A DNA stretch of 64,000 nt from Polytrichum commune. Lineage: Eukaryota > Streptophyta > Polytrichopsida > Polytrichales > Polytrichaceae. The notes under the pieces are model-generated. The model was not told where the DNA came from. It did no database searches and saw only the letters and a list, made by a program, of their open reading frames with translations. The translations under genes were made by a program, and so were the position numbers. Positions 6,639 to 64,000 of this stretch are shown piece after piece. The stretch spans positions 43,054,758-43,118,757 of the forward strand of contig OX485805.1 of NCBI GenBank assembly GCA_950295325.1, given 5' to 3'. Every line of letters begins with the position of its first letter. Within the stretch, counting starts at the first letter, position 1.

Positions 6639-9087
6639 TAGCTGGCCCCACGTAAGCATAATCAGTGATGTTTTCCTCAAATAGATGCTCATTATCCACA
6701 TGGAGGGTTGGTGCAATGGAGAACCGTGTAGCAGGCCAGAAAGGGTCGCTAAGTTCAGATGGAGTTGGGAGTAAAGGTTGATCCATAGCCGCAAGCACAT
6801 TCTCCCAATATAAAATTGTTGGCGCAATGGACTCCATATATTGACCCGAACTATCTTGATCTGCCGTATCCTTCCAATACTTAATAAAACCTTGCACCCC
6901 AAGCTTTATGTTCACGGAATCTTTCATCTCCCTTTTTGGAACGGGACGGGGGCACCCTACAAAAACAAACATACAATGAGCTCGGAGCAATACGACGGAC
7001 TAACTGCCCACGGGTGATCACCCGTGGGCCACATACTTCACGCCATGTATTTTCTAGTGCACTTCCAAAGCAATACAAACAAGGGACCCACTAACCTGTA
7101 GGGACCATGGTCTTCTTTGTGATAGGGTCCACTTTCCAAAGAGCAATTCCTCCATCAGGCACCCAACTTGGATCTGTACAATACACTTTGTACTGCATCA
7201 ATGGCACTCCTTGAGGGTCTACATAAAAACGGAATTGGTGCGCCTTGGAATGCCCAATAAGTCGATCTTGACCAAACTCATTGTAGTATCCCTTCACCCA
7301 TTCCTTGAAATCAGCAACCTCGTGGATTAACGACGGAACAATAGTGGGTTCCCCAGCAGCCATGAACGATGCCATGAGGTCTGGGAGTGTATGGCAATCC
7401 TCAATCTTCAGCCTTTGTCCAAACCTCCCAAACATTGCATCCACATCCTCATGCGTATGTCCAACAATAAGGAAAGACACCCTGACTTCCCGAAAAATTC
7501 CCTTTGCAGTCAGAGCTGACCAAAACAACATGTTGTATTTTGATTTGTTGTCCTTCGCACAATTGTCCATTTGAACAAGCAGGAGGGGTGGCAAACCTCT
7601 AGGAGGAATACTTGCGGGCGGTGGCAAGGGAAGTATTCCTGAACACTTCTCTACACCAACCACCAATGCGTCGTGTAAAGGATCACCTATGGACGAAATC
7701 GGAATGTGTCTACTAGAGCAAACATGTTATACTTCAAGTTGACAAAGCAACTTCATCATCGAGGTGATAGTGAAGTTGGCATCGGATGGGTACATATCAA
7801 GGACATAATGCGCATAATTCACATCTGAGTGACCATGCGCAATCATCCCCGCAATGGATATGGGGAATCGCTCGTATTTATCAACACGTTTGTTTTTGTG
7901 CGCGAAAACGGGAAGAGCCGTTTTCCCATAATCCATTTTGTCATGGATTATACAAAGCACCTCATTGGGAGCATACTTTGACAAAATCCTATCTTTATAG
8001 TAACTGTTTCTATGAGCCTCCTACAATGTTAGATGACGAAGGCTAGCATTCGAGATGGCCAAGTGACCAACTGTGTTCTTTGTGTGTATTCGCAACAAAT
8101 CCTTGAATGCTGCACAAGTTCCACAACGCGAGAAGTTGTCACCGGGGCTCTTTATAACATACTGCTTGTAATGTTGTCAATGTAGGCGGCTGAAGGTGGA
8201 CATAGAGATAGGCGTGTACCCTAGGTCTCCGCCCAAGTTGTTCACTTCCTGCAACAGGTTGCACCACGTTGTTCCCACAGGGAGCATCTCTGTCCCTATC
8301 TTCTCACCAGTTGGAAGAGTCCGAGTCATATGGGGCATGGCGTCCGCCCTACCCTCAACCAATACTCCAAGGGTGGCTCGTGCCTGCACTGTATTTGCCC
8401 GTGGTTTTCTAGTTCCTGTATTTCCATGATCTCGAGATCTAACCCCCATCAAGCTTTCGGCCTTGTTCCTATTATATTGTGCCCTTGATATCATATAGAT
8501 GTTCATCCATGCGCGAGTGCATATTGTTCTCCCTTCCAATTGCACCATTTCACGTCCGTTGTGCTCATGTTTATGGATTGATTGGAACACTGACAGGGCT
8601 ATGAGCTTCCGAGCATTGAATGGCAATGCGAAGTAGTGTTCCCGAATACTCATCAACAAAGGCCTTGGGAATACCTGGCAACAATGCTCCGAACAACAAT
8701 CCACCGCTGATAACATCCGCGCATGCTCCTCAGTGGCTCCCCAAATTTTCTTCCCAGGTGGCCGAGGTGCACACATCCTCGCAGTGTTGTATTGGCGTTT
8801 TCCAAGCAAGCGCCGATGACTTTGAACTTCGCGGGTCGCATTATGATGGACCAACAATATTTCCGCTAATGTATGTCCTTCAAATTTCGTGAGTGAAAGT
8901 GGCCATCGGTGCAGAGTATTCTCCCAATCCCGCGAAATAACATTGTCAGTTGGGTTCAAGATAATAACTCCAACATCCTCAGCCCCAAGGATGCTATTGT
9001 CAACACAATCCAACGGATTTGTGTTGCAAATCAATCCATCACACAAAGCATGGCCCTGTGAGCCCAAAATGATGCCCACATGTGGTG
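6639..9087 (-). pseudogene. DUF7869-like protein gene, copy 1 (decayed, truncated by LTR insertion)
   Basis: The translation aligns along its length with copies 2 and 3 but is clearly diverged. Shared landmarks are the cysteine motif CC-x3-CCQ-x-F, HGNTG-KKPR-like and ADAMPH-TLSTGEK-like blocks, IIHDKMD, GMIAHGH, QMDNCAKDNKS (near 7,560) and VGHTHEDVDAMFGR (near 7,450). I take the last two as the core of the family named DUF7869; its biochemical role is unknown to me. In-frame stops occur near 8,175 (TGA), 8,019 (TAG) and 7,728 (TAA) with the frame otherwise kept. A 139-bp intron (6,957-7,095) is absent from the other copies. The C-terminal part is cut off by the retroelement at 6,638. Confidence 0.72.
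7007..7028. repeat. Family 2 dyad inside an intron of DUF7869-like copy 1
   Basis: CCCACGGGTG-AT-CACCCGTGGG is a perfect palindrome with 10-bp arms and a 2-bp centre. It lies in the 139-bp intron 6,957-7,095. The same dyad is clustered upstream of the gene at 10,567-11,306. Confidence 0.9.
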
Positions 9088-10566
9088 ATTAACTCTTCGA
9101 AACCAATTTTAGTTTGACTTTGATGTGTTATGACTATTCACAAAACATAAAAAGAGTGAAGTGTGGTGTGGATTTAAGTTTAGGCATTAGAATGTGTTGT
9201 GTAGTTAATTCAAGGTTTGATTTCCAATAAGAGGATGCCTTGATTATGTGAGTAAGGGGTAAGGTGAGGCAAGGTGAGGTCCGCGGGTTAAATGCCCACT
9301 TTTGGATCCACTTTGGTAGTTTAGGAAGAAGGAGCTTGGTGGATGGGGATTAGTCCCTACTTTGGAGGAGAGGGTTAAAGGATTGTGCTTGGAGGTGCTA
9401 ATCCTCCCACCTTATCCTCACCTCTCTCTCCCTCTCTCCCTCTCTCCCTCTTTACTACTTAAGGTGTTTTTCTCTCATTTTTTTTCTCTATCCATCAAGC
9501 GCTCTCAAGGGGAGCAAGCTCTTAAAGAGCTTGAGCACGTGTGTGTGACATTAGTTTTTAGTAGAGTTGATTAATTAAGCTCTCTCTCAAGGCCCCAAGT
9601 GAGGGAGCTCTTGAGTTTAAGGTTGCATGTAGTGATTAGGTGTTAGTTAGTTAAAGTAGTGTGTTAGATTAGCGCATGACTTAGCATCAAAAGAAAGAAA
9701 AAAGAGGAAGAATTAGAACCTTGATGATGGGATGGAAAGGTTGTATTAAGGGTAGCCAAGACTAAGGTGAGGAGTTAACTGCTGGAGGGATTCGGCTGGG
9801 CCTAAGGCCAACCAGCTTAGCTGCTGGACTAAGGTGAGGAGCGACTGCTGGAGGGATTCGGCTGGGGCCTAAGGCCTAAGCAGCTTGGCTGCGGGAAGAT
9901 AATTTGGCTTGGGCCTAAGTATTTCATTAGCTCTAATTAGTCAAACTACTAGGGGGGTTGTAGTTAGGGGGATAATCCTTTTAGGATTGATAGACCATGA
10001 TAGATTATTGCATGCCATCTTGGCTTTAGGTAGAGTTGGATTTACTAGGAAAGTAGAAGTGTGTGGGACTTTCAAATGTGTGGATGGTTACCCATTGAAG
10101 CAAGTGTTTTTAAACACTCGTACCTTTGGTTGGAATATAATACGTGCACAATCAATGGGAACTGTGGAGGATCCTAGCAAGGACAAGATAAAGGAAGTAA
10201 AAATCAAGAAGTCTAGAGGGATCTCTTTAAGGGCATGCGTGGCCAAGGCCGCGGGTTGGACCCTTGAAAAATCGAATTCCACTACGAGCAACGATGCTCA
10301 CAATAATAAAGCAAAGGAGTTAAGATGAAGTTAGTGCCTTGAACATGAGAGCCATATAGCAATTCATGTTATGGTATTAGGAATTGAATGTGATTCTCAA
10401 AGCCATCACCCGGACTAGGACGCCTAAGGGTGGTGGATTTGGCCTCACAGGCCCTCATCATCAAAGAGCACAACGACCTTCCCCTTCAAGTCCGTCCTCG
10501 ACAGTCCAATGTAATGTGGAATCTGAACATCGATATCAAAGTATGTCAACACACATTGACCAAAAG
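9088..10566. other. No clear gene; possible insertion upstream of DUF7869-like copy 1
   Basis: The homology of copy 1 stops near 9,087. A CT-rich microsatellite lies at 9,421-9,450. A roughly 65-bp segment (CTGCTGGAGGGATTCGGCTG core) is duplicated at about 9,778-9,895. An open frame of 139 codons (9,909-10,328, plus) has no similarity I recognise. On the minus strand at about 10,440-10,540 a short stretch reads GLSRTDLKGKVVVLFDDEG, weakly like the N-terminal GLSRASWVNLDVVL block of copies 2/3, so 9,088-10,400 may be an insertion splitting the N-terminus. That is tentative. Confidence 0.35.
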
Positions 10567-11306
10567 CTCACGGGTGTTCACCCGTGGGGGACAACAGTGA
10601 CATCTCAGCAGAATATTTACATTCATATAGGGGTGAGCTCTACACCTCACTTCACACAACTCAAGTGAAGTATGTGTTACTTATCATATCCCCATTGGGA
10701 GAATGACCCTTCTTACCAGTTTCCACAAAGCCCCAACACCAAAACTAACACCCCCAACACTTACTTGTGTACAAGTATTACTATGGATGTAGGTCTCACA
10801 TTTTCTAGCCCAAGTGCTAGCAAAATAGTTGCCATTCAGGATAGTGTCAACATTCCAGTTTAACAAATATCATCGTCACCATATATCATAATGCATCACG
10901 AATAATATGTACCTATTACCCATTGACAACATATTTCACATACTCAGAACTAAGCATAATTGCATCTACAACTATTGAGTATGTCACACACATTATATAT
11001 GGCCAACTTATAACCACACATATGCAGGGAGAACTAAAATACAAATCATGAACTGCCACGGGTGAACACCCGTGGGGGCTTCCATGCTGACATCTACTAC
11101 TAGAAATTTTGTTACACATGAACATATGGGTAACTTCTATTCTGACATATACTAGGATAATTGAAATATAAACCATAAGCTCCCACGGGTGAACACCCGT
11201 GGGGGCCCCCAACCGGGTGCCAGAGTCTCCCACGGGTGAACACCCGTGGCATACTTGGCCGTACAATGGGGTACGGCCAGAGTGTTGTCACGGGTGCACC
11301 CGTGGG
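10567..11306. repeat. Cluster of five family 2 dyads
   Basis: Dyads lie at 10,567-10,588 (centre TT, one arm mismatch), 11,055-11,076 (AA), 11,182-11,203 (AA), 11,229-11,250 (AA, last base differs) and 11,287-11,306 (no spacer). Intervening sequence is not repeated in step, so the dyad itself is the conserved unit. The cluster lies upstream of DUF7869-like copy 1 on its transcribed strand, as family 1 dyads lie upstream of copies 2 and 3. Confidence 0.88.
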
Positions 11307-11309
11307 AAA

Positions 11310-12550: not shown

Positions 12551-12605
12551 TTTAACACTATATTCGTTAAATTGAGACTTTCTCTAGTCTCAAATTAATA
12601 TATGG
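12551..12605. repeat. Foldback element at the left end of segment A
   Basis: AACACTATATTCGTTAAA is followed by TTGAGACT...AGTCTCAA, a short self-complementary hairpin, then TTAATATATGGATC. Near-identical copies sit at 45,083-45,138 and 32,690-32,740, and a shorter one at 22,851-22,885, at or near the edges of segments A and A'. Confidence 0.65.
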
Positions 12606-13084
12606 ATCAAACAACATTCCGTGTTCCGAAACTATATTGAGAACAATCTCAAATATAATATATGTTCTAATATCCCAAATCTATTATGTGTGGACATAAG
12701 CACATATGGTAGAGCACTCAACACCAACTTCATCAACAAAAACACTTTGGGTAGAGCACTCCAAACTAGTTTCACCCAAGAAACATATAAAATGATTTCT
12801 ATTATTAGCATGGTCAATAAAATATAGACCTTGCAACATACAAAGTACATGCAATAAATGCATTTTTCTTCAATGGAAAATTTAGTCCCAAACTTAATAA
12901 AAAAATGAACTTCACAACTGTATTGAAATATAGTAAATGGATATTCATCCAACCCCAAACAATATAGCATTCGCAAGTTCTACCCAAACTTTGCCCCAAG
13001 TTTGAGGAGCACACATATGAGTAATATATATTCGTCGAATTACATATTACACTATAATCATGCTAACACAATCCTCTCAACTTC

Positions 13085-16000
13085 TCATTCAACGTGGGTT
13101 GCTTCTTATGCGATCCGAGCAAGGTTGTCTTTTGCAAAAGTTATGTACTTTTGAGGGATGGACACTGATCCACTATGATTTTTCCGTGGTTTCCATGCTA
13201 TGAATATGGAATCTGTATCTACCCAAGATGAACCGTGCTCAGAATCCACCTTCCACCGAAAGTTAGGGTTTGTATCCCAGCCTGTATAATGCCGAATCAC
13301 ATCTTCATTCCTTGCCGTCGGTCGGTAGTACTCTACTTGTATTTGTCGAAAATGAGGGCTGGAAGTTACAAAATTGGGTTTGGACAAAGCTCTTGCCACC
13401 CACACTGGCTTCGCATATGTCTCGTCTCCAGGACGCAAAATGAGCATATAACCTTCATGACAATCCACTGCAATGCGGAAAGATGGTGGCGGACGACTAC
13501 TAGCAGGCCCCACGTAATGGTCGTCCACATCAAACTCCTCTCGAACCTCTCCATTTCCCAAAAGACTAGCCTCCAAAGCTTGTACATTGACACGTGTTTG
13601 TGGCCAAAACCCATGCCTTAAAGTAAGGGGTGTATCTTGATGAAGGTTTGCCAAAGCGCCACGAACACGTGTCCAATATTGTATCCAACTTCTGTAACGA
13701 AGCCAACACGATCCACCAACATCCGCTACCCTCAAACTCTCCCAATATTGTATGAAGCCTAATATGCCTTTACAAATGTCCTCCAAATTCTTCATGGGTA
13801 TTGGTTTGCAAGGCTTAGGCTCTCCGTCAGGCAACATCGTCCTTCCCTCCCCATCAACACGCCATACAAGGAGACCCTCCGGCGGGCTCCAGTCTTATGA
13901 TGTGCACAACAACTTGTATTGCATGGCGGGGACACCATCGTCACGCACGTAGAACCGAAATTGTTGTGCCTTCGTATGCCCGATCAATCGGTGAGCTCCG
14001 CTTCGAATATACGGTTCTATAAATGCCTTGAAGTCGGGAACCTCCTCGATCATATGGGGGATGACGGGAATGTTCTCCAAATCCATGTACGACTTCATCA
14101 ACAATGGGATTGTTGGAAAATCCTCCTCGCGCAACTTTATGCTCCACCGCCCAAAAGAGGCATCGATATCGTCGTGCGTGTGGCCTACCAATAGAAAGGA
14201 CACAAAAACCTCCTTGAAGAAGCCTTTCGCCACCAACAACGACCAATATGCAAAAACATATCTACTTTTATTGTCCTTCGTACAATTGTCCAATTGGACA
14301 CGCAGAGTTGGGAGCAACTTCTTGGCAATCACATCTTTACTTGGTGGCTCCGGCAAGGAGTGCACGCATACATCTCTTCCATCCAAGACCGCTTCATATA
14401 GAGGTGTTGATCCCGAGTTTTCAAATAACAATCTTGATGAATAGGACGGCGGTTTCTCCAAATCACGTAAAAGCTTTGCAAATGACCCTATCGTGTGGTT
14501 TGAATCCGCCGGATACAAATCAAGAGCATAATGAGCATACTTGACATCGCCATGTCCATGTGCAATCATTCCTGCAAAGCCAACCCAATGGTTTAATATT
14601 CAACTATAACACCAAAAAATTCACATGGTGTACATCTATGGCCCCAAATACAAACCTAAAAGCACAAATTTGTGCTGAGGTAACGCAATGCAATTGTTAT
14701 CCAAATCACCTGTAACCGAAACAGGAAGCTTAAAAAGGCCGTCTGTGGTTTTGATTCGATTTGCAAAACATGGTGAGGCTGTTTTGGCATGGTCCATTTT
14801 GTCATGGATGATTGTAAGGACCTCCAAAGGCCTGGAGATGGACAAAGCTCTATTTGTGTAGTAATCATTACGGTGTGCCTCTTGCATGTTCACATGCTTG
14901 AAATAGTTCATTTGATGTGCGGCATAGGACTCTGTCCCCATCGTGTGTGCATCTCAAAGGCGTTTCAACTTCTCGCATTTGGAACAACGGGCAAATTTGT
15001 CGCCTCGTCTTTTTGTGATGTATTCGCTAAAGTGAGATTTTTTGATAGCACTTAGTTTCGACAACGAAATTGGGTCCAACCCGGCCTTCTCGCCAACTGC
15101 GTTTACGTCCAACAATATGTCTTTCCATTTCGTGCCTGTAGGAAGAACCTTCTCCACAACCTTTTCACCGGTTGAGAGTGTGCGTGTTTTGTGCGGCATT
15201 GCATCGGCAAGGGGGACAATGATGGTTGCCAGAGTCGCTGTTAATTGTCTCCTTGCTTCCCTTGGTTTCTTTAAGCCCGTATTCCCATGGTGACGGGAAC
15301 GGCGGCCTTCCTTGGCATACGCGGCTTGTCTATAAAATTCCGCTTTCGACACACCGTGAATGGTGTACCATGCCGTACAACACACGTCTATGCTCTCAAG
15401 GGTGATGACCTTGCGACCCACTCCGTTCACATGTATCGCCCTATGGACATCAAGCTTTTTGGTGGATCTTAGACGGAAATCTCCAAGCCACATTTCCTTG
15501 CGGATGGCCTTCAATTTATCCCTTGGGAACAATTGGCAACAATGATGTACACAACAATCCTTTGTGGCAACTTCTCTAATAGACTCCTCACAGAGCAACC
15601 TTTGACGTTTACACTCATTTGCAGACGGAGTAGGACGTGCCAATGTATCGTACTTCCGTAGGCCTTTGCGTGGCCGAATGTTTGCTTGGAGCTCCTATTG
15701 GATTTGGATGTGTCATCGCTCATGCTCATGCAAATTAACCCCATCAATTGTCACATTCCTCAACGGCCACCTTCGCAACGAGAACCTATGAGTTGGATTC
15801 ACTTCGGAATGTACGAGTGATTCCAATATAACAACTCCAACGTCGTCGGTGCCAAGGGGGTTTTCATCAATGCAATCTTGTGGATGTGTGTTACGACAAA
15901 TACCCTCCGCCACAGCAACTCCATTGTCATTAACAAGTACCACATCCAAATTCACCCATGAAGCTCGTGAAAGCCCAGCACATTCCACAGTGGGGCAAGA

Positions 16001-16174
16001 AGGGGCAGATGGTGAAGGACTCCCCAAATGACCTTCATCTCCACTGTCACCAAAACTATCCTCCCCGACAATGTCTACGTCATCCCCAGAAGAGGAATGG
16101 GAGTTGCCCATGTCTTTAGAGAAGGCATCCCCTCTTCCACCAACTCCCTCCATTGCGCCTACACACATGCGCAT
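13085..16174 (-). pseudogene. DUF7869-like protein gene, copy 2 (pseudogene)
   Basis: Closely similar to copy 3, with the same exon layout including a 137-bp intron (14,573-14,709). Landmarks: acidic/serine-rich N-terminus, CC-x3-CCQ-x-F, CSKCEKL, IIHDKMD, GMIAHGHGDVKYAHY, QLDNCTKDNKS and VGHTHDDIDASFGRW. It is disabled by a frameshift near 15,715 and in-frame stops near 14,952 (CGA to TGA), 13,895 (CAA to TAA) and 13,111 (GAA to TAA) relative to copy 3. The 141-bp dyad satellite begins about 155 bp upstream. The family's function is unknown to me; paired cysteines suggest a metal-binding or DNA-binding segment, which is inference. Confidence 0.75.
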
Positions 16175-16329
16175 GAAACCTCAACAAACATGCACACCAT
16201 GTAAGGGTTCAAAAGAATCAAATATCAAAAAATGCAAGACATCATGATAAATGGGGACACCGAGGATAAAGACATTTGCAACACAACTACAATGTGAACT
16301 CCCAATACTTTGCACAAGTTCCAAAAACA

Positions 16330-19300
16330 ATTTAGGGAGGGGGTTTGGGTCGACCGACCCAAACCTTCTCATGGTCAACCTCCAGCCGCCCAAGCTGGGG
16401 TTGGGGTTTGGGTCGGTCGACCCAAACATTCTATGGCAAGGGGTCGAGGGGTTTTGGTCAAACCCGCCCACACTGGTCCAGGGGTTTGGGTCGACCGACC
16501 CAAACCTTCTCATGGTGAACCTCCAGCCGCCCAAGCTGGGGTTGGGGTTTGGGTCGGTCGACCCAAACATTCTATGGCAAGGGGTCGAGGGGTTTTGGTC
16601 AAGCCCGCCCACACTGGTCCAGGGGTTTGGGTCGGTCGACCCAAACATTCTATGGCAAGGGGTCGAGGGGTTTTGGTCAAGCCCGCCCACACTGGTCCAG
16701 GGGTTTGGGTCGACCGACCCAAACCTTCTCATGGTCAACCTCCAGCCGCCCAAGCTGGGGTTGGGGTTTGGGTCGGTCGACCCAAACATTCTATGGCAAG
16801 GGGTCGAGGGGTTTTGGTCAAGCCCGCCCACACTGGTCCAGGGGTTTGGGTCGACCGACCCAAACCTTCTCATGGTCAACCTCCAGCCCCCCAAGTTGGG
16901 GTTGGGATTTGGGTCGGTCGACCCAAACATTCTATGCCAAGGGGTCGAGGGGTTTTGGTCAAGCCCGCCCACACTGGTCCAGGGGTTTGGATCGACCGAC
17001 CCAAACCTTCTCATGGTCAACCTCCAGCCCCCCAAGTTGGGGTTGGGGTTTGGGTCGGTCGACCCAAACATTCTATGGAAAGGGGTCGAGGGGTTTTGGT
17101 CAAGCCCGCCCACACTGGTCCAGGGGTTTGGGTCGACCGACCCAAACCTTCTCATGGTCCACCTCCAGCCACCCAAGCTGGGGTTGGGGTTTGGGTCGGT
17201 CGACCCAAACATTCTATGCCAAGGGGTCGAGGGGTTTTGGTCAAGCCCGCCCACACTGGTCCAGGGGTTTGGGTCGACCGACCCAAACCTTCTCATGGTC
17301 AACCTCCAACCGCCCAAGCTGGGGTTGGGGTTTGGGTCGGTCGACCCAAACATTCTATACCAAGGGGTCGAGGGGTTTTGGTCAAGCCCGCCCACACTGG
17401 TCCAGGGGTTTGGGTCGACCGACCCAAACCTTCTCATGGTCCACCTCCAGCCCCCCAAGCTGGGGTTGGGGTTTGGGTCGGTCGACCCAAACATTCTATG
17501 CCAAGGGGTCGAGGGGTTTTGATCAAGCCCGCCCACACTGGTCCAGGGGTTTGGGTCGACCGACCCAAACCTTCTCATGGTCGACCTCCAGCCACCCAAG
17601 CTGGGGTTGGGGTTTGGGTCGGTCGACCCAAACATTCTATGCCAAGGGGTTTTGGTCAAGCCCGCCCACACTGGTCCAGGGGTTTGGATCGACCGACCCA
17701 AACCTTCTCATGGTCGACCTCCAGCCACCCAAGCTGGGGTTGGGGTTTGGGTCGGTCGACCCAAACATTCTATGGCAAGGGGTCGAGGGGTTTTGGTCAA
17801 GCCCGCCCACACTGGTCCAGGGGTTTGGGTCGACCGACCCAAACCTTCTCATGGTCAACCTCCAGCCCCCCAAGTTGGGGTTGGGATTTGGGTCGGTCGA
17901 CCCAAACATTCTATGCCAAGGGGTCGAGGGGTTTTGGTCAAGCCCGCCCACACTGGTCCAGGGGTTTGGATCGACCGACCCAAACCTTCTCATGGTCAAC
18001 CTCCAGCCCCCCAAGTTGGGGTTGGGGTTTGGGTCGGTCGACCCAAACATTCTATGGAAAGGGGTCGAGGGGTTTTGGTCAAGCCCGCCCACACTGGTCC
18101 AGGGGTTTGGGTCGACCGACCCAAACCTTCTCATGGTCCACCTCCAGCCACCCAAGCTGGGGTTGGGGTTTGGGTCGGTCGACCCAAACATTCTATGCCA
18201 AGGGGTCGAGGGGTTTTGGTCAAGCCCGCCCACACTGGTCCAGGGGTTTGGGTCGACCGACCCAAACCTTCTCATGGTCAACCTCCAGCCGCCCAAGCTG
18301 GGGTTGGGGTTTGGGTCGGTCGACCCAAACATTCTATACCAAGGGGTCGAGGGGTTTTGGTCAAGCCCGCCCACACTGGTCCAGGGGTTTGGGTCGACCG
18401 ACCCAAACCTTCTCATGGTCCACCTCCAGCCCCCCAAGCTGGGGTTGGGGTTTGGGTCGGTCGACCCAAACATTCTATGCCAAGGGGTCGAGGGGTTTTG
18501 ATCAAGCCCGCCCACACTGGTCCAGGGGTTTGGGTCGACCGACCCAAACCTTCTCATGGTCGACCTCCAGCCACCCAAGCTGGGGTTGGGGTTTGGGTCG
18601 GTCGACCCAAACATTCTATGCCAAGGGGTTTTGGTCAAGCCCGCCCACACTGGTCCAGGGGTTTGGATTGACCGACCCAAACCTTCTCATGGTCGACCTC
18701 CAGCCACCCAAGCTGGGGTTGGGGTTTGGGTCGGTCGACCCAAACATTCTATGCCAAGGGGTCGAGGGGTTTTGGTCAAGCCCGCCCACATTGGTCCAGT
18801 GGTTTGGGTCGACCGACCCAAACCTTCTCATGGTCCACCTCCAGCCACCCAAGCTGGGGTTGGGGTTTGGGTCGGTCGACCCAAACATTCTATGCCAAGG
18901 GGTCGAGGGGTTTTGGTCAAGCCCGCCCACACTGGTCCAAGGGTTTGGGTCGACCGACCCAAACCTTCTCATGGTCCACCTCCAGCCACCCAAGCTGGGG
19001 TTGGGGTTTGGGTCGGTCGACCCAAACATTCTATGCCAAGGGGTGGAGGGGTTTTGGTCAAGCCCGCCCACACTGGTCCTGGGGTTTGGTTCGACCGACC
19101 CAAACCTTGTCATGGTCCACCTGCAGCCACCCAAGCTGGGGTTGGGGTTTGGGTCGGTCGACCCAAACATTCTATGCCAAGGGGTCGAGGGGTTTTGGTC
19201 AAGCCCGCCCACAGTGGTCCAGTGGTTTGGGTCGACCGACCCAAACCTTCTCATGGTCCACCTCCAGCCACCCAAGCTGGGGTTGGGGTTTGGGTCGGTC

Positions 19301-30491: not shown

Positions 30492-30517
30492 CTGCAAAGA
30501 AAGAAGCAAGGATGTTA

Positions 30518-34868: not shown

Positions 34869-34873
34869 GTTGA
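34869..34873. other. Target site duplication GTTGA, left
   Basis: GTTGA flanks the retroelement here and at 41,928-41,932. Copy 2 has a single GTTGA at the same gene position (CCGTTGAGG), confirming the pre-insertion site. Confidence 0.95.
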
Positions 34874-41927: not shown

Positions 41928-41932
41928 GTTGA
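41928..41932. other. Target site duplication GTTGA, right
   Basis: Second copy of the 5-bp duplication; the gene reads on from it (GTTGAGGAATGTG). Confidence 0.95.
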
Positions 41933-47514: not shown

Positions 47515-47519
47515 GCTGC
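47515..47519. other. Target site duplication GCTGC, left
   Basis: GCTGC precedes TGTGAACCC here and follows ACCACA at 50,358-50,362. Removing the insert and one copy joins the reading frame of the ParB-like gene without a shift. Confidence 0.9.
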
Positions 47520-50357: not shown

Positions 50358-50362
50358 GCTGC
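50358..50362. other. Target site duplication GCTGC, right
   Basis: The second copy of the duplication; the coding frame continues with LRRTTPSETPAD. Confidence 0.9.
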
Positions 50363-51107: not shown

Positions 51108-51321
51108 GTGAGTATTGTTTGGGTCGATCGACCCAAACTCATTTTCCAGCTTTATTTGTGTACTTTGGGTCGCTCGACCCAAAGTCTTGTTGCAGTCATG
51201 TTTTTTTTTAGTTTGGGTCGATCGACCCAAACTCTTGGTGCAGACACTGGTCATGATATGTTTTGGAAATCACATGTACATATCTAACATGCATTCAAAT
51301 GATTGTTTTGATCACATGCAG
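51108..51321 (+). other. Intron of the ParB-like gene with three family 1 dyads
   Basis: Donor GTGAGT, acceptor ATGCAG. Dyads at 51,117-51,138 (AT), 51,163-51,184 (CT, outermost pair also changed in step, C...G) and 51,211-51,232 (AT). About a third of this 214-bp intron is dyad. Confidence 0.9.
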
Positions 51322-52653
51322 GACTTCAAATACCAAATGATAAATAAATTCTCCTCCATTGATAATGCTAGTCACAAACAGAAGAAATACAACGAGCTTA
51401 GAGGAGAGATTTATTTAATCACAGCATCCGACTCCGTTTGGATGAAGTGGAAGAGTGTATTTGAGAAGCATGAGACGGGTGAGCTCATCGACCCGGACAC
51501 AGGAATGTACTTCAACCAAACCGCGCGCTTCAAACAAATGAAGCCTCTCGTGAGAGAGTTCTTTAGAACTCTTCAAGGCCTTTCCGAGACGGAGATGGAG
51601 AAGGCGGCGGCGCATATCCTGCATTTCACGCCCACGGCGAAAAGGTGTTGGGTGCACCCGAAGATTGTCTTCTTAAAGCCCAAATCCTTCGTCCCTTCAT
51701 GCTACACTATGAAGGAATGGACGGAGAATAGGAAAAAGAAGACAACTATAGTGCAGGAGTTGCATAAATTGGTGCCGGAGAGGAATATTGTTGTGGACGG
51801 CGAGGTTCATGAGGCTAACTGGAGAGCATTCAAAGCTGAATATAAGTTCACCAGTGCCTCCATGGCGGCTCTAATAAGGGAAGCGGGGGACGACTTCCTG
51901 CGGGCCAAGATGGTGAAAGGTGGGAAGAACCGGGCGCTTCCCGACCACACAGCGCGTGCGTTCTCGAACTTCATCAAGGAGAAGAAGATTGTCCAATTTG
52001 AAGGGGACGCTTACTTCAACCTTGTCACCTTCGAGCCTTTGAAAATTCAAGGCTGGCCAGGTCAGGACGCCAAAATGGCCATAAGGACGAAAGCAGGGGG
52101 GCGTTTTCCATTCGGAATCATAGATTTCAGGAACATTCTTGGAAGCTCATTTGAGGGTACGATGAGCACACCGTTTTACGACCCCTTCCTATCTAAGTTC
52201 GTCGATTACGCGAGTCCTAAGTTCAGGGAGATTGATATCTGGCTATGGATAGTCGAGGATAGGAGGGCGGAGCAGGTGTACGACCTTGTCCGGAAATTGC
52301 AGCCGGAGTATGCAGTCTCCAAGTCTCACTACATCGCCGCACCGGCGGAGGGGGCCTACACGTTGTTGAAGGACAAGAAGACCAAGGTCGTCAACGTCCT
52401 GTGTTTGTACTTCGTGTACAAAGCGGAGTTGTTGAAGGTGCTGAACCACCCTATATCCCGGATGGACAAGCTCTTCCAAGTACCAGATGGGTTAGGTGCC
52501 AGCAAATGCCTATACGACGAGGCCAAATACGCAAACTATCCTGCAGATGAGCTGCGGATGGAATTCTACATGCGGATGCTGAGGACGCTGACGAGGAGAG
52601 GGGACTGTATCTTCAACGTGTTCGGGGGCTCGAAACCCGTTTATGCTGCCATG

Positions 52654-52843
52654 GTAAGTTACATTCTTTAGCTCTTGCGCAGCTTTGGTCGGTCGACCCA
52701 AACTAGGGTCTGTCTTGATTTGGGTCGGTCCACCCAAACTAGGCTCTCTCTTGGTTTGGGTCGGTCGACCCAAACTAGATATTGTTTTTGGTCTTGTTTT
52801 TTGTCTTGCAAATTCTAATTTCTATATAACTTGGATTGTGTAG
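52654..52843 (+). other. Intron of the ParB-like gene with three family 1 dyads
   Basis: Donor GTAAGT, acceptor TTGTGTAG. Dyads at 52,683-52,703 (one G missing), 52,718-52,739 (one arm mismatch) and 52,754-52,775 (centre GT), spaced about 35 bp apart. Confidence 0.88.
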
Positions 52844-53582
52844 ATGTTGGGGTTGAACATCTACTCGTACATAGAGGATGGCGATCTGCAATTTTACAGG
52901 ACGCAGAAATCGCTGGCAAAGAAGATGGATATCCTCGATTGGATCCCGGGAAGCTACGTGGACGAGGTTGTTGAGGGGGGTGAGAACCCTCTTGATAGGG
53001 CGAGGCGGATCAACCCGGAAGAAATTGCGATGAGGGCAACAACCCAATTACCCGAACCTCTAGTCGGGTTGCATCCGGGCAATCCGTCCCGTACAGGAGG
53101 TGGAGAGCTGGAAGAGGAGGAGGACGAAGAAGAACACGGAGAGGAGGAAAAGGAGGGGGATGTGGAGGAAGGGGCAACGGGATTCACGCAAGAATCCGAA
53201 GCCCCTCAGAGGAAGAAGGCTATGCGTGTGGCAACCCCGAAGAGTAAGATGATGCCCGTCCTTACGGTGGACGATGCGAGGGGCATGTACTCCAGGGACG
53301 CGACTGCCACGTTCCGGGAGAGGAGGAAGTTAAAGGGAAAGAAACTCTATGGCGATTACGCATTGGAGGAGACCATTGCCATTAGCAGCGAGGACGACGA
53401 CGACATTGAGCTCGCCAAACGGCTCAGATCGGATCCCCCCTCCCCGACAGCGTTCGCAGGCATGGTTAGGGTGAAACCCGAGGTCCTCACTGTGGAGGAA
53501 GCCAACGAGAAGATGCGTAGAGACGAGGAGCAGCGCGTCCGCCTGCAGAGGGCTGCCGCGGAAGAACCCTCCGTGCGGAACG

Positions 53583-54274
53583 GGAAACTCAAGTATGTGA
53601 GCATAGTTCGGAGAGCGGAGAGCGGAGAGCGGAGATTGGAGAGCGGAGATTTTCAAATTTGTTGGAATATTTTAGGGGAAGTCGTGCCTATTTCCGTGGA
53701 ATTTAGTGATAGTTTGTCTTCAATTTGTCGAAAAAGCCACCCCATTCCCGTGTAAATAATAACCGAACCTTGGTCGGTGAACCAACCGAACCTATAGGCG
53801 TGGAAGATAGTGTTTGTTATCAAACATCTTATAGTCTAGGTTTCGAATACGTTTATATTAAATTAGGGCTTACGTCATCAATTGAACATATGAGTTAAGC
53901 CTTACACAAACATTCAAGCGGTATGGAATGTGGCCAAGAGTTAAAGTTCAACACAAACATTCAAGCGGTATGGAATGTGGCCAAGAGTTAAAGTTCAACA
54001 CAAACATTCAAGCGGTATGGAATGTGGCCAAGAGTTAAAGTTCAACACAAACATTCAAAGTCACTCACAACCTTAGCATCTCTCAAATACAACTAAAGTA
54101 GACAACCTTCAAAGTATACTCAACCCGTCCACCCAACCTATCTAGAGAATTGAAATCAAACACCAACCAACTTCAATAAGGGATTGAATGAGGTTTGCAA
54201 TAGCCACATAAAAATTGAAGAAATAAACTTATAAAGTAAAATCAATACAAACAAAATGGAGGTCCGAGGCGTAG
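53583..54274. repeat. Non-coding gap with a microsatellite and a 47-bp tandem repeat
   Basis: A GAGAGCG-type microsatellite spans 53,611-53,645. A 47-bp unit (ACACAAACATTC...AAAGTTCA) repeats at 53,904, 53,951, 53,998 and in part at 54,045. It separates the convergent ends of the two ParB-like genes. Confidence 0.8.
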
Positions 54275-57200
54275 TCAAGAACTAGGACTACCATGTCTAT
54301 CACTATCCTCACCCTCCTCGGCCTCTATGTCTAGAAAATCCTCTATTAGTTTGTTGAAAGGCCGGATGCGACTAGGAGGTGGAGACGGAGCTTCCGCTAA
54401 AAGATTGGCAAAACTAGCAGCATAGGTTGGGAGCTCGAACGTCTTGGAAGGACTCGAACTCATACATGCGTTCTCCCTTGGCGCTCTGAACGAATAAGCA
54501 ATAAGATTAGAAACAAAATAACACACAAAGATGGGAAAATGACAAGAACGTAAATATGAGAAAACATAGAAATAAAACTTACGCACAAAGAAAACCGAAT
54601 GCGCGTTTGGTCATCTTCTTAGGAGGATCAAACATAGAGGTGGACGGTGTGGCATTTGAGCGGGGAGGTCGCGAAGGTTGGTTTTCACGCATGGGGAGTA
54701 GTATCGCATTAAAAATCACTGGGTCACTCTCAAGGGCCACAATATGCCGCTCAATGGAGCGACACGCTGTAATCGAACCACCTACACCACATTGCCAGTC
54801 CATAATAACATCATTCTTATCGGTGAGAGTAGCAAAAAGGATAGAAAAAAAAACTTGATGCTTTTCGCGAGCACCTCTCCAGGGTATCCCATCACTGCGC
54901 ATTGTCTGGCTCTTCTCATCGGTGAAAGCATTCAACCATCCATCTCGCTGGAGGTAGTAGCCATACTCCTGGGCGGCCTCCGGTCGCACTTTCAGAACGG
55001 AGTTAGCACGAACAAGAACCTTGATATTGAATTTGCGAGTCTGAAAAAATGACAACGATTTCATAAGAATCGGAATAAGTAAAATGAAAAACAAAACAAA
55101 AATGGACTAGGAGATGGATAGTTGCTTACCACTCCAGAGGGGTCCACCGGAGATTGGAGGTCCAAATCAGCCATTCCGAACCAATCTTCGGCGACGTAGA
55201 AGTCGTAAGTGTGTGCCCAATCGAAAACCATCCTAGAAACACTTGCACTCGCACAATGGACAAGGACAAGGACGCCATGATCATAGAGGTTAGATTTTGC
55301 AAATGCAAAAAGACACTCATAGTAAGAATCATGGAGCTTGTTCCATTCAGGAACATCCGTGGAGATGTTGGGCACCGGCAAATTTTCAGGAATGTCCGCG
55401 AAGAGTAAATTGAGGCCCTTGTGAAATGTAGAGGAGGTGTTCACACGGGAGCGACCTTCCCCGGCCTGCAATGAAAAATTCATGAGAAAAAATGGAGAAG
55501 GAAAAACAAAACCAAACCAAACGGAAAGGAGTCTGATGAATGCCAAAAGAAAACATACAAACCTTGGCAATGAACTCTTGTATGCGCGTATATGCCGGGA
55601 GGGGACCTCCTGCAAGGTCGGAATTGAGCATGAGTTGTACCATGCCCACATTTTCGATGAGGGCAAGCGTGGTAGGGGAATCCGAAGAGGTGGCACTCGT
55701 ATCCAAGAGGGCGGCCTTCCTCTTGCGAGGCAAGGAGAGTAGAGAAGTGCCACTGTGTGAAGAAGTAGCAATAGTTTGTTGACGAGATGCGGATGGAGTG
55801 ATAGAGGGGGCAGCTGATGGAGCAACTGATGGAGCAACTGATGGAGCAACGGAGGGAGTACTAGGTGGACTCTGTAAAAGGGTGGGTGGTTGAACAAGGG
55901 TCTTTGAGGCAGACCGAGTTGATTGAGTGCCGGTATTCCTAGCTCTTCCCTTTCCCTTTGGTGCCTTGGGCGGTGGAGGAGGAAGCTCAACAATGTCGGG
56001 CTCCTCAAAGGGGACAAAGGTCACCTCGGGAGCACTACTCACAAGGGTGGAAAAAAGAGGCTTCTCTACCTCAGGCACAAATCCTCCAGAACAATCCAAG
56101 TACCATCCCCCAGCCTGCAAGTGAGACTCCGAAAACTTGGAAACTTGCACGGGCGTATACACACAAAGATCGGAGTTGACATTGACCCAATCTACAAGGA
56201 AGGTTGGCAAGCACGAAGAAGGCAAAGCATTCTTCACAACGAGCTCACGGTGGATGAACCTGTAAAATGAAGAACATCATAAACAAAAAAGGTGGCGGGA
56301 TTGAAATGAAACAAAAACTATATGAAATAAAAGAAAACTCAAAATATTACCGGTAAGCGACGTGTTTGATTGCTATGGGGCCTTCCTCAAAATCCATGAG
56401 ATCAAGGCCTTTGATAAATTTCAAATCTCCCTTGTCGTCAAAATAAACCAGAAATGCCTTGTCCCAAAGATTCAGCCTCCAATGCTCAACATAATTGGCC
56501 GGTTGATAAATATCCTCCGCGGAACTCCAATCGATTTCAACGGAACACTCATTTTCAAATGAAGCTATCTCACCCTCAACCCCCTTCTCCAACTATGACA
56601 ACAAAGAAAATAGTAAGGGGATGGTACTTGATAACATACTCCACTCTAACTTGAACCATATATGAAAAACAAAATTCAATTTTGACAACATAGACCTCTA
56701 ACATGGCCCCTTAAGACATTAGAAATATGAACTTAGCTTATTAACTAGAACTCTGAAACCTTAACCTGGCCACTTATTAGGCTGAAAATTTGAATTTAGC
56801 TTATCAACTACAAATCTGAAACCTCAAACATGGCCACATATTAGACTCATAATCTAAACCTAGCTTATCAACTACAAATCTGAAACCGCAAACATGGCCA
56901 CTTATTTCCCTCATAATCTGAACCTAGCTTATCAAGTACAAATCTGAAACCTCTAACTTGGCCACTTATTAGCCTCATAATCTGAACCTTGCTTATCAAC
57001 TACAAATCTGAAACCTCTAACATGGCCACTTTTTTCCCTCATAATCTGAACCTAGCTTATCAACTAAAAATCTGAAACCTCTAACTTGGCCACTTATTAG
57101 GCTCATAATCTGGACCTAGCTTATTAACTACAAATCTGAAACCACTAACATGGCCACTTATTTCCCTCATAATCTGAACCTAGCTTATCAAGTACAAATA

Positions 57201-60200
57201 TGAAACCTCTAACTTGGCCACTTATTAGGCTCATAATCTGAACCTTGCTTATCAACTACAAATCTGAAACCTCTAACATGGCCACTTCTTTCCCTCATAA
57301 TCTGAACCTAGCTTATCAACCAAAAATCTGAAACCTCAAACTTGGCCACTTATTAGGCTCATAATCTGAACCTAGCTCATTAACTACAAATCTGAGACCT
57401 TACACATGGCCCACTAAAACCCCACTATCCCCACCCTCTCGGAATCGAGAGGGTCCCCCCCCCCTTGGCCAAATATTTAGTGGACCTCAAAACTAGACAG
57501 AGAATCTGGAATTAGCTTACATACTAGAATTCTGAACCCTCTAACATGGCCACATATTAGCCTCATAATCTAAACCTAGCTCATTAACTACAAATCTGAC
57601 ACCTTAACATGGCCCACTAAAACCCCTCTTACCCCACCCTCTCGGAAACGAGAGGCCCCCCCCCCTGTCCAAATATTTCTTTGACCTCAAAATTAGACTG
57701 AAAATCTGGAATTAGCTTACATACTAGAAATCTGAACCCTCTAACATGGCCACTTATTAGGCTCATAATCAAAACATTGATTATCAAATACAAAGCTGAA
57801 ACCTTAAACATGGCCCGCTAAAACCCCACTTACCTAATCCTCTCGGAATCGAGAGGGTCCCCCCCCCTGTCCAAATATTTAGTGGACCTCAAAACTAGAC
57901 TAAAAATCTGGAATTAGATTACATACTAGAAATCTGAACCCTCTAATATGGCCACATATTAGGCTCAAAAATTGAACCTAGCTTATCAAGTACAAATCTG
58001 AAACCTCTAACTTGGCCACTTATTAGGCTCATAATCTGAACCTAGCTTATTAACGAGTAATCTGAAACCACTAACATGGCCACTTATTAGGCTCATAATC
58101 TGAACCTTCCTTATGAACTACAAATCTGAGACCTTACACATGGCCCACAAAAACCCCAATATCCCCACCCTCTCGGAATCGAGAGGGTCCCCCCCCCCTT
58201 GGCCAAGTATTTAGTGGACCTCAAAACTAGACTGAAAATCTGGAATTAGATTACATACTAGAAATCTGAACCCTCTAATATGGCCACATATTAGGCTCAA
58301 AATCTGAACATAGCTTATCAAGTACAAATCTGAAACCTCTAACTTGGCCACTTATTAGGCTCATAATCAGAACCTTGCTTATCAACTACAAATCTGAAAC
58401 CTCAAATTGGCCACTTATGAGACTCATAATCTGAACCTTGCTTATCAACTAGAAGTCTGAAACCTCAAACATGGCCACTTATACGACTCAAAATCAGAAC
58501 TTAGCTTATATTCTAGAAAACTGAAACCTTAACCAGGCCAGTTATTCGGCTGAGAATCTGAACTTAGCTTATTAACTAGAAATCTGAGACATCAACCTGG
58601 CCACTTATTCGACTCATGATCTGAATTTAGCTTATCTAATTCAAATCCGAAACCTCAACATGGCCCACTAATACCCCACTATCCCCTTGAAATCCGAAAC
58701 CTTGGCATGACCCACTCGAATCCCACATGTAGAATGGAAAGGAAGAAACGGAGTCAAAATACTGAGGATGCACCTGAGCCCAGAAAGAAGCTTTGTTGAG
58801 CCAGTTGTCGAGGACTTTCTCCCTAAGAGGGAGATCGGAGGGAAATCTATTCTTATCCTTGACCTCGGGAGGAGAGTTCCACCAACGTAGCCACTTGGCC
58901 TTGAAGTGGGAATCTACATGTGTGGTGGCCACCTTTTGAAGTTTCTCAATTGTCATATCAGTGACCAGGAAAGCGGAGAAATGACGGTCAATCTGCCACA
59001 TAGAAGAAAGATAAGTAAAATAAAGATAAAACAAGCACGGCAAAATTCATAGGAGGATGAAAAACTAAACCAAAAAACAAAGATAGGAGAGACACCTCGT
59101 TGAAGAAATCATCACCGTTGTCCTTGTGGGCAACGGAAATGAACTTCTCAAAGTTCCGAGAACGAATGGTTTTGATCAACCTATCTTGGGCTTTTGTCAT
59201 AGCATTCCAAATATCGGTAGCAGTTCTCTGAGCCTCCGGAGTAGCCTCACGATATAACCTTGCCGCGGTATCAGCCGCGTTGGATATCTCCCTCTGAAAA
59301 AAACAAAAATAAGGATAAGAAGCGCACATAGACGTGGGAGAAGGATGGGAGTGGAAAATGTACACAAAATTTACCTTGTATAAGAACTTGACGAAGACAT
59401 CTAATGTCAGGGGATACCAAGTAGGACTCTTCTCCATCTTGGACTCACACATCTTGTAGTCCGAAACGGAAAGGAGGTCTTTGAACTCCTCTAGCCTCAT
59501 CTTTCCAAACGTGCGAATGCGAAGTAACTTGGCGGGGAGGTTGTCCTTAACATGGTCATGCTCCGTGGACCTAGACAAATAAAATGTTAGAGGAGAAAAT
59601 ACGAACAAACAAAAGAGACGATCAACAACATTAAATGTTGAACTCACCAGTTGATGTCATTCATAGCATTAAGAAAGAGAGCGGTGCAATTTCTTGCATC
59701 CACCACAATACAATCAGCCCATATATGCCAATTTTTGTCCAACGGGTGATGATTGTTGATATGCCTCCACCAAGCTGTCAATCGATGGTTCCCTTCCCAC
59801 ACGAAGCACATTTTGCCAACAAAGTAAGCAAGGTCGGAGTCTTTTTGGAGTATGGCATCAAACTCTGCATTGGCCTCCTGCCATAATGGACTCCAGGAGG
59901 ACTTGATGTCATCGGAGACATCAAGAGGCTCATCGAGGTTGTTGTATGCTGAGACGTACATAGCTCGGTCACCATCACGATACCCCATCACAAACTCATT
60001 CTCCAAACGAGAAACATCAACGTCGTTGATTGGCCGAACAAGAGGAAGAGTCCGCAACCGACACAATGGAATTGAGAAACGAGACTTCCCTAGAGGCTTG
60101 AATCGAACCCGCTGAATCACGGTGTTGGAGTCTTGTTTTTGCGATCTACGAATCGTTAACTCTGCTTCAGCTGGATTCGACTCAGCAAGAGGTCTTATGC

Positions 60201-60462
60201 AGTCGGGTATAGCCGGAACATCAATCTACAACATAAGAGAAAGAAAGCATAAGAAAAGAACTCTAAACCCAGAATGTCAATGCAACATTGATACAATACA
60301 AGAACACTTGTATCAGATGAACGAATCAAACACCTCTTCTTGTGAGATGTCATCCAAAGCCGCATGGCTAGCCTCAGGAGGCGACAATATAACAACCCCA
60401 TCCGCCATGTATTGCACCCGTGCTACAGTAAGACCCAAAGACTCCGATGCCTGCATGCACAT
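54275..60462 (-). CDS. Second ParB-like/methyltransferase-like protein, ten exons, intact (about 1,087 aa)
   Basis: Exons (minus): 60,462-60,334, 60,225-59,648, 59,570-59,375, 59,293-59,096, 58,992-58,774, 56,592-56,351, 56,259-55,563, 55,465-55,130, 55,040-54,583, 54,485-54,275. All junctions are GT-AG and phases agree throughout, summing to 1,088 codons with stop. Residues about 95-230 form a ParB-like region with CFVWEGNHRLTAWW near 185-197. The middle is Trp-rich and unassigned. A Pro/Ser/Ala-rich linker (PSVAPSVAP type) follows. The C-terminus (about 754-1,018) resembles a permuted N6/N4 methyltransferase: a NLYDHGVLVLVH strand region, then IMDWQCGVGGSITACRSIERHIVALESD near 944, like motif I. 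No DPPY-type catalytic box is visible, so methylation activity is doubtful. The start is ATG 60,462 or 60,456; an upstream exon is possible. No sign of decay. Confidence 0.75.
56593..58773 (-). repeat. 2.2-kb intron filled with a ~64-bp satellite and family 3 dyads
   Basis: The intron between exons 5 and 6 consists of many ~64-bp units (ACTACAAATCTGAAACCTC, ATGGCCACTTATTAGG, CTCATAATCTGAACCTAGC), with a longer unit containing a dyad at 57,433-57,454, 57,636-57,657, 57,837-57,858 and 58,167-58,188. The dyad is ACCCTCTCG-GAAT-CGAGAGGGT, 9-bp arms around 4 bases, usually followed by a C run. The flanking splice sites and phase are intact. Confidence 0.88.
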
Positions 60463-63400
60463 AATACACCTTAAGACACTAGAAAACACAACAAAGCATA
60501 GTCTTTGCAAAATTAGAAACCTCCAACCTGCCCCAGTAATCCTAGATGACCCACCCTGTCGATTCCAAGAAAAATCCCCTTATTCACTATATCTCCAAAT
60601 CAGAATCCACTATTGACAACAAAGAACTCCACCTGGGCCCCTCACACCCACCCTTTGGTTTCCGAGAGGGTCTAAAACTTGGACTCATAATCTGATCTTA
60701 ACGTATATAGTAGAAATCTGAACCCTCTAACATGGCCACACATTAGGCTCAAAATCTGAACCAAGCTCATTAATTACAAAGCTGAAACCTTACACATGGC
60801 CCACTAAGACCCCACTATACCCACCCTCTCCGAATCGAGAGGGTCCCCCCCCTGTCCAAATATTTAGTGCACCTCAAAACTAGACTGAGAATCTGGAATT
60901 AGCTTACACACTAGAAATTTGAACCCTCTAACATGGCCACATATTAGGCTCAAAATCTGAACCTAGCTCGTTAACTACAAATCTGAAACCACTAATATGG
61001 CCACTTATTAGGCTCATAATCAAAACCTTGCTTATCAAATACAAAGTTGAAACCTTACAAATGGCCCACTAAGACCCCACTATCCCCACCCTCTCGGAAT
61101 CGAGAGGGTCCCCCCCCCTTGGCCAAATATTTAGTGGACCTCAAAACTAGACTCAAAATATGGAATTAGCTTACACACTAGAAATTTGAACCCTCTAACA
61201 TGGCCACATATTAGGCTCAAAATATGAACCTAGCTCGTTAACTACAAATCTGAAACCACTAATATGGCCACTTATTAGGCTCATAATCAAAACCTTGCTT
61301 ATCAAATACAAAGCTGAAACCTTACACATGGCCCACTAAGACCCCACTATCCCCACCCTCTCGGAATCGAGAGGGTCCCCCCACCCTGTCCAAATATTTA
61401 GTGCACCTCAAAACTAGACTGAGAATCTGGAATTAGCTTACACACTAGAAATCTGAACCCTCTAGCATGGCCACATTTTAGGCCTAAAATCTGAACCTAG
61501 CTCATTAACTACAAATCTGATACCTTAATATGGCCCACTAAAACCCCTCTTACCCCACCCTCTCGGAATCGAGAGGCCCTTCCCCCTTGTCCAACTATTT
61601 CTTTGACCTCAAAATTAGACTGAGAATCTGTAATTAGCTTACACACTAGAAATCTGAACCCTCTAACATGGCCACATTTTAGGCCTGAAATCTGAACCTA
61701 GCTCATTAACTACAAATCTGATACCTTAATATGGCCCACTAAAACCCCTCTTACACCACCCTCTCGGAATCGAGAGGCCCTTCCCCCTTGTCCAATTATT
61801 TCTTTGACCTCAAAATTAGACTCAAAATCTGGAATTAGCTTACACACTAGAAATTTGAACCCTCTTACATGGCCACATTTTAGGCTCATAATCTGAACCT
61901 AGCTCATTAACTACAAATCTGACACCTTAACATGGCCCACTAAAACCCCTCTTACCCCACCCTCTCGGAATCGAGAGGCCCCGCCCCGGTCCAAATATTG
62001 CTTTGAATTCAAAATTAGACTCAAAATCTGAACCTAGCCTGTCAAGTACAAATCTAAAACCTCTCACTTGGCCCCCAAAAATCCCACTATCCCCACCCTC
62101 TCGGAATCGAGAGGCCCTTCCCCCTTGTGCAACTATTTCTTTGACGTCAAAATTAGACTCAAAATCTGGAATTAGCTTACACACTAGAAATCTGAACCCT
62201 CTTAGAATGGCCACATATTAGCCTCATAATCTGAACCTAGCTCATTAACTACAAATCTAATACCTTAACATGGCCCACTAAAACCCCTCTTACCCCACCC
62301 TCTCGGAATCGAGAGGCCCTTCCCCCTTGTCCAACTATTTCTTTGACCTCAAAATTAGACTGAAAATCTGGAATTAGCTTACACACCTGAAATCTGAACC
62401 CTCTTACATGGCCACATTTTAGGCTCATAATCTGAACCTAGCTCATTAACTACAAATCTAATACCTTAACATGGCCCACTAAAACCCCTCTTACCCCACC
62501 CTTTCGGAATCGAGAGGCCCTTCCCCCTTGTCCAACTATTTCTTTGACCTCAAAATTAGACTCAAAATCTGGAATTAGCTTACACACTAGAAATCTGAAC
62601 CCTCTTAGAATGGCCACATATTAGCCTCATAATCTGAACCTAGCTCATTAACTACAAATCTAATACCTTAACATGGCCCACTAAAACCCCTCTTACCCCA
62701 CCCTCTCGGAATCGAGAGGCCCTTCCCCTTGTCCAACTATTTCTTTGACCTCAAAATTAGACTCAAAAACTGGAATTAGCTTACACACTAGAAATCTGAA
62801 CCCTCTTACATGGCCACATTTTAGGCTCATAATCTGAACCTAGCTCATTAACTACAAATCGGATACCTTAACATGGCCCACTAAAACCCCTCTTACCCCA
62901 CCCTCTTGGAAACGAGAGCCCCCCCCCCCCCGGTCCAAATATTGCTTTGAACTCAAAATTAGACTCAAAATCTGAACCTAGCCTATCAAGTACAAATCTG
63001 AAACCTCTCACTTGGCCCCCAAAAATCCCACTATCCCCACCCTCTCGGAATCGAGAGGCCCTTCCCCCTTGTGCAACTATTTCTTTGACCTCAAAATTAG
63101 ACTCAAAATGTGGAATTAGCTTACACACTAGATATCTGAACTCTCTTACATGGCCACATATTAGGCTCAAAATCTGAACCTTATATCCCTCCTAATCTGA
63201 ACCTCCGTTATCAAGACCAAATCTGAAACCTCTAACTTGGCGAATAATTAGGCTCATAATCTGAACCTTTCTTATCAACTACAAATCTGATACCACAAGC
63301 ATGGCCACTTCTTTTCCTCATAATCTGAACCTAGCTTATCAAGTACAAAATCTGAAACCTCTAACTTGGCCAATTATTATGCTCATAATCTGAACCTTGC

Positions 63401-64000
63401 TTATCAACTACAACTCTGGAACCTCTAACATGGCCACTAATTAGACTCAAAATCTGGAATTAGCTTAGACACTAGAAATCTGAACCCTCTTACATGGCCA
63501 CATTTTAGGCTCAAAATCTGAACCTAGCTCATTAACTACAAATCCGATACCTTAACACGGCCCACTAAAACCCCTCTTCCACCACCCTCTCGGAATCGAG
63601 AGGCCCTTCCCCCTTGTCCAACTATTTCTCTGACCTCAAAATTAGACTGGAAATCTGGAATTAGCTTACATACTAGATTTATGAACCCTCTAACGTGGCC
63701 ACATTTTAGGCTCATAATCTGAACCTAGCTCATTAACTACAAATCCGATACCTTAACACGGCCCACTAAAACCCCTCTTGCACCACCCTCTCGGAATCGA
63801 GATGCCCTTCCCCCTTGTCCAACTATTTCTTTGACCTCAAAATTAGACTCAAAATCTGGAATTAACTTGCACACTAGAAATCTGAACCCTCTTACATGGC
63901 CACATATTAGGCTCAAAATTTGAACCTAGCCTATCAACTACAAATCTGAAACCTCTCACTTGGCCACTTATTAGGCTCATAATCTGAACCTTGCTTATCA
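60463..64000 (-). repeat. Upstream satellite array with family 3 dyads
   Basis: The same satellite as in the intron continues from about 60,670 to the window end. Dyads include 60,650-60,671 (degenerate, at the array edge), 60,823-60,844, 61,088-61,109 and 61,355-61,376, then further copies near 61,558, 61,757, 61,957, 62,096, 62,297, 62,500, 62,700, 62,903, 63,040, 63,586 and 63,786. Later copies have one decayed arm end (GAGAGGCC instead of GAGAGGGT). Longer units of about 200-270 bp alternate with ~64-bp units. The array extends past the window. No gene is seen in it. Confidence 0.9.

Follow-up and report, generated by a model that had tools for sequence, protein, structure and literature searches.

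Genes and mobile elements of the locus

The window, i.e., the whole stretch of DNA analysed, comprises 64,000 nt of Polytrichum commune OX485805.1 (GCA_950295325.1; forward strand, 43,054,758–43,118,757). GT-AG introns agree with its eukaryotic nature, and transposons abound in it. Two related LTR retrotransposon copies, one partial (1–6639) and one at 34874–41927, border or interrupt older elements; an integrase zinc-binding domain was found in an LTR retrotransposon, and each LTR (5666–6638, 34874–35846 and 40955–41927) carries a 24-bp perfect palindrome, GGGCGCTGTCCCGGGACAGCGCCC. Besides the retrotransposons, three DUF7869 genes, a NIF-type phosphatase ORF, two ParB1-type genes (one of them partial) and a further ParB-like gene, ParB2, were recognised.

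DUF7869 copy 1 (6640–9088, minus strand; PF25273, 3.6e-40) has an LTR retrotransposon adjoining its 3' end, copy 2 lies at 12554–16180 (minus strand; PF25273, 3.2e-40) and copy 3 at 34453–44607 (plus strand; PF25273, 1.6e-41), the latter with the 34874–41927 retrotransposon inserted in it. The segment 12554–15764 of copy 2 shows 96.8% identity to copy 3. Copies 2 and 3 are edged by a 28–29-bp repeat, which was rejected as an element terminus because it is direct and not inverted. The search for DUF7869 relatives found 225, and among the 120 listed four had a named organism, all mosses (Ceratodon, Physcomitrium). The predicted structure weakly suggests a DDE-transposase-like protein; comparison with solved structures by sequence gave one chance match only (E 2.3), and the word DUF7869 found no mention in the literature searched.

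Copy 3 is bracketed by two inverted arms, the left at 27073–32036 (plus strand) and the right at 45140–50357 (minus strand). The two share 99.6% identity over the outer 3.7 kb and 74–82% in the inner parts, and their outer ends revealed no target-site duplication. TTTAGGG-type telomere-like repeats are present at 30797–30935, in the left arm, and at 32220–32246, near copy 3. The arms are abutted by ParB1 (50469–53582, plus strand; exons 50469–51107, 51322–52653 and 52844–53582 or beyond), a ParB-like and methyltransferase-like gene. The right arm ends inside sequence matching the coding part of ParB1, and about 200 N-terminal residues of the ParB1 relatives are absent at this junction. A second ParB1-type gene is represented by its C-terminal part at 25590–26621 (minus strand), where nt 26267–26621 are 96.7% identical to nt 53222–53582. 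Between this partial gene and the region upstream of copy 2 lies the NLI-interacting-factor-like phosphatase ORF (24323–25177, minus strand; PF03031, E 4.6e-14), possibly a cargo gene.

In the predicted structure of the ParB1 relative P0001, a ParB-like fold adjoins a DNA-methyltransferase-like fold, in agreement with the ParB-like nature that an earlier note on this DNA had proposed for the encoded protein. The model gives the ParB1-type protein a ParB domain and, with less confidence, an N6-adenine-methyltransferase-like domain, whose methyltransferase motif is non-canonical. Foldseek with either the P0001 or the DUF7869 model gave no match at E 0.001, sequence comparison of ParB1 with solved structures retrieved none, and P0001 found nothing below E 3 among phage records. 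No relative of either ParB1 or DUF7869 was confirmed in the viral contig collection.

ParB2 (54275–60450, minus strand) is a hand-made ten-exon open model of 1083 aa, with a provisional start and with methyltransferase matches. None of the 7981 candidate relatives scored, from a collection of 5.8 billion sequences, reached E 0.001, and the ParB1 profile gave no meaningful match to ParB2; the model stays open over its ten exons although no look-alike stood among the scored candidates. A 47-bp tandem repeat (53904–54058; 3.3 copies, 100% matches) separates ParB1 from ParB2.

Three dyad families and their placement

Three families of dyads are dispersed over the window. At up to 3 mismatches, family 1 counts 93 sites (71 of them exact; 0 in 100 shuffles), family 2 five and family 3 eighteen, the shuffles again giving 0 for both. 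The earlier note had described three families that all span 22 bp: the families proved real, while the common span failed for family 3, in which the full 22-mer is found at 4 of 18 sites and an 18-bp core is kept in 14. Most upstream copies of family 3 end in an asymmetric GGCC on one side. The spacer of family 1 is 2 at every site, and family 2 has a sixth, spacer-less copy at 11289 resembling an 18-bp core. No match to the three patterns was obtained in the viral contig collection, nor to the family 1 pattern in the genome contig collection; translations of the 120 listed of the 225 DUF7869 relatives contained none of the three dyads at 0–1 mismatch.

Perfect palindromes with arms of at least 8 number 145 in the window as against 4–6 in five block shuffles. 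Since the two LTR retrotransposons together also exceed chance, with 33 single hairpins of the same arm length against 0–3 in five block shuffles, the mere presence of palindromes does not set this DNA apart. None of the retrotransposon hairpins belongs to the three families, and the special feature of the window is the dispersed multi-copy dyad families rather than palindromes as such.

Placement was counted over 116 sites, with gene and retrotransposon borders set independently and array and block borders drawn by us around the clusters. None of the 116 falls within the 13.7 kb of the two LTR retrotransposons. Family 2 accompanies DUF7869 copy 1, as the earlier note had it, with four sites upstream (10567, 11055, 11182 and 11229, within 10567–11306 together with the spacer-less variant) and one in a GT-AG intron of the gene (7007–7028). 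Family 3 likewise keeps to the second ParB-like gene: 14 sites lie upstream of ParB2 (60650–63806, mostly with one end asymmetric) and four in its intron 5 (56593–58773; dyads at 57433–58188). It mostly travels with a 64-bp satellite, whose unit fills much of intron 5 (56694–58665) and of the upstream region (60714–64000).

Sixty-four family 1 sites make up the array upstream of DUF7869 copy 2 (16343–20784), built on a 141-bp unit with two dyads, and 12 lie upstream of copy 3 (33493–34279). Introns 1 (51108–51321) and 2 (52654–52843) of ParB1 hold three each, at 51117–51232 and 52682–52775, so that the claimed presence in introns of the first ParB-like gene was borne out. The two inverted arms contain five and three sites (left, 30518–30916; right, 46647–46912), and three more are found at the 3' end of the partial ParB1-type gene (25559–25971), two of which (25881 and 25950, read as FGSGDPN and FGSTDPN) fall in the coding tail and are the only coding sites among the 116. 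Family 1 reaches 9–16 sites per kb in each of its clusters, namely the copy 2 array, the copy 3 block, the two arm blocks and ParB1 introns 1 and 2. No site of the family occurs in either retrotransposon, in any of ParB1 exons 1 to 3, in the DUF7869 genes of copies 2 and 3, or in the exon groups of ParB2 and the short introns that go with them. Because the 64 array sites form one tandem array, they are not independent of each other. Over the same array runs a stopless frame of 1485 codons (16298–20755, plus strand); the 141-bp unit is divisible by three, and the frame is likely a by-product of this periodicity more than a gene.

The proposal that every gene has a dyad of its own did not hold, as family 1 goes with ParB1 as well as with DUF7869 copies 2 and 3; at these two DUF7869 copies, moreover, the dyads are upstream only. 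Family 1 is common to two DUF7869 genes and ParB1 and thus marks a system, not one gene. That ParB1 and DUF7869 belong together is suggested mainly by this shared use of family 1.

The arrays lie within 5 kb upstream of DUF7869 copies 2 and 3, copy 1 has a family of its own and dyads are present in both inverted arms; with the DDE-transposase-like resemblance of the DUF7869 model, this would suit binding sites at which the DUF7869 transposase acts in excision and integration, in the manner of subterminal repeats, the ParB-type genes being mere carriers. We consider this unlikely, though deserving of weight, since the arm dyads lie 3.4–3.8 kb from the arm tips, with the outer 3.4 kb devoid of any, and since the gene-internal sites are densest in the ParB1 introns, where a transposase would not need them and where they recur in relatives of the gene.

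Recurrence of the dyads in diverged sequence

With strands matched, the copy 2 array proves homologous to the copy 3 block, but their spacers have diverged. In the four longest alignments, which are partly anchored by the dyads themselves, dyad columns are 0.98–0.99 identical and all other columns 0.59–0.62. Masking the dyads leaves no similarity among ParB1 intron 1, ParB1 intron 2, the 3' end of the partial gene and the DUF7869 blocks, or between the ParB1 introns and the arms. Inside the 141-bp array unit, dyads are barely more uniform than spacers. Eleven family 1 sites outside the array are divergent: ten are changed on one side, and one, at 51163 in ParB1 intron 1, is changed symmetrically on both sides and still pairs.

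In a protein collection, 19 relatives of ParB1 were found (P0001–P0019, scored with the exception of P0017–P0019). They are ORFs that run on into introns, and the intron pieces were scored by degenerate back-translation, skipping pieces under 9 residues. For intron 1, a dyad with 0–2 mismatches was obtained in 10 of 11 readable pieces, the exon 1 identities among those ten relatives ranging over 61–89%; for intron 2, a dyad with 0–3 mismatches was obtained in all six pieces (exon 2 identities among the six relatives 62–79%), that of P0003 also holding exon 3. The three readable upstream pieces fit the dyad with 1–3 mismatches. A 24-residue piece preceding exon 2 of P0007 was a miss (5 mismatches, with 49 of 300 shuffles as good), and a 442-residue piece of P0008 was left out of the count because it reads straight into the exon (5 mismatches; 276 of 300 shuffles as good). 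Frames and numbers of the dyads vary among the relatives. Some variants may be perfect palindromes, as far as degenerate back-translation allows rather than reads them: P0004 and P0005 both admit GTTTCGGTCG-NN-CGACCGAAAC, P0007 admits GTTTGGGCCG-NN-CGGCCCAAAC and P0006 admits GTTTCGGGCG-NN-CGCCCGAAAC, with P0005 also holding a site that would fit the unchanged dyad.

Because relatives repeat the dyad in both introns, in varying frames and numbers and with variants that are possibly perfect palindromes, the comparison favours dyads that are maintained as putative protein-binding sites. Functionless short palindromes, spread passively by satellite amplification and gene conversion, would account for the concentration of 64 of the 93 family 1 sites in one tandem array, for the occurrence of family 3 in its 64-bp satellite both upstream of ParB2 and in intron 5, for dyads about as uniform as spacers in the 141-bp unit and for the retrotransposon hairpins above chance. 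Such an origin appears improbable to us in view of the contrast of about 98% with about 60% identity between the copy 2 and copy 3 blocks, of the occurrence of one dyad both in otherwise dissimilar surroundings and in the corresponding introns of relatives, of variants that can stay symmetric and of the absence of all three families from the 13.7 kb of retrotransposon. Hairpins acting in RNA, e.g., in intron splicing, would also be preserved by symmetry-keeping changes and part of the sites are intronic, but this reading is very improbable, as most sites lie upstream or in arms, no Rfam family matches and the invariable family 1 spacer looks more like a helical-phase constraint on DNA.

A putative self-recognition system and its known counterparts

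On balance we lean, by a modest degree, towards the dyads being putative docking sites through which the ParB-methyltransferase-like protein encoded by a transposon family would recognise the DNA of that same family, for self-marking or anti-silencing in a VANC-like way. We infer that a ParB-type dimer would bind the two dyad halves; the protein could load at upstream arrays, introns, coding tail and arms, and then coat the element. Most likely, the element would in this way mark itself and, together with its transposase gene, stay active (anti-silencing, like Arabidopsis VANC), and a second use of the coating might be to help bring element ends together. Unrelated dyads in each family would mean that each protein serves its own kin only. 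The fold pair, the intron recurrence, the 98–99% versus about 60% identity and the symmetric variants are consistent with an element-encoded dimer that reads its own dyad. The broader proposition falls slightly short of what we would call probable: a eukaryotic ParB/parS-like self-recognition, in which transposons would place family-specific 22-bp dyads in their upstream regions, introns, coding tail and arms, to be read by their own ParB-pseudo-methyltransferase, dyad and protein co-diverging between families and the element being shielded or marked.

Bacterial ParB binds palindromic parS sites near its own gene, and the Noc-NBS pair is comparable. The ParB-like fold and a palindromic site near a ParB-like gene (family 1 in the ParB1 introns, family 3 upstream of and inside ParB2) recall these systems, whereas the sequence and setting of the site differ, the DNA is that of eukaryotic transposons and a methyltransferase-like domain is fused. 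Segregation of the bacterial type, which the earlier note had entertained, finds no backing: no ParA-like family was recognised among the 20 window ORFs scanned with Pfam, in elements that may be incomplete in the window, and the canonical chromosomal parS consensus gave 0 matches in the window at up to 3 mismatches.

A closer counterpart of the protein is on record. According to PMC12477816, the 21.5-kb DNA transposon Sola1-1_Ec32 of Ectocarpus encodes an accessory protein of about 1100 aa that combines a ParB-like domain and an N4C/N6A methyltransferase domain in one chain; its authors propose that such proteins bind and modify their own transposon, and cite ParB-methyltransferase transposon proteins in green and red algae. 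The suggestion of a system new as a whole has thus been anticipated, ParB-methyltransferase proteins of algal DNA transposons being already in print. In both cases a ParB-like domain shares one protein with a methyltransferase domain, which is tentative here, and the protein is tied, here putatively, to DNA transposons. They are set apart, as far as that description goes, by the transposase-like partner (here DUF7869, not Sola), by the non-canonical catalytic motif and by the putative target dyads that are visible here, in introns and arrays. The accessible literature gave no report of cognate dyads for such proteins, which may stand in Iyer 2011 or Petroll 2025. What is new here, judged from back-translated sequence, is that ParB1 relatives carry the putative dyad in intron 1 (10/11) and intron 2 (6/6). 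Earlier ParB-methyltransferase reports only suggest what is bound, and family-specific intronic dyads make the question of the target directly testable.

By analogy, and from PMC5735166, the nearest working model for the dyads is Arabidopsis VANC. The VANDAL motifs described there are family-specific, 8–9 bases long and tandem-repeated in introns, intergenic and terminal non-coding parts, and VANC proteins are encoded by the elements, with binding and hypomethylation demonstrated. Short motifs that are family-specific and repeated in tandem likewise occur here, in introns and elsewhere in the non-coding DNA of the same element, with 2 of 116 sites coding; the motifs are dyads of 22 bp against 8–9 bases there. 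If the proposed reading is true, ParB-type DNA recognition would be at work in eukaryotic chromatin, and the P. commune elements would provide a further case, beside VANC, of transposon self-recognition via short repeated motifs.
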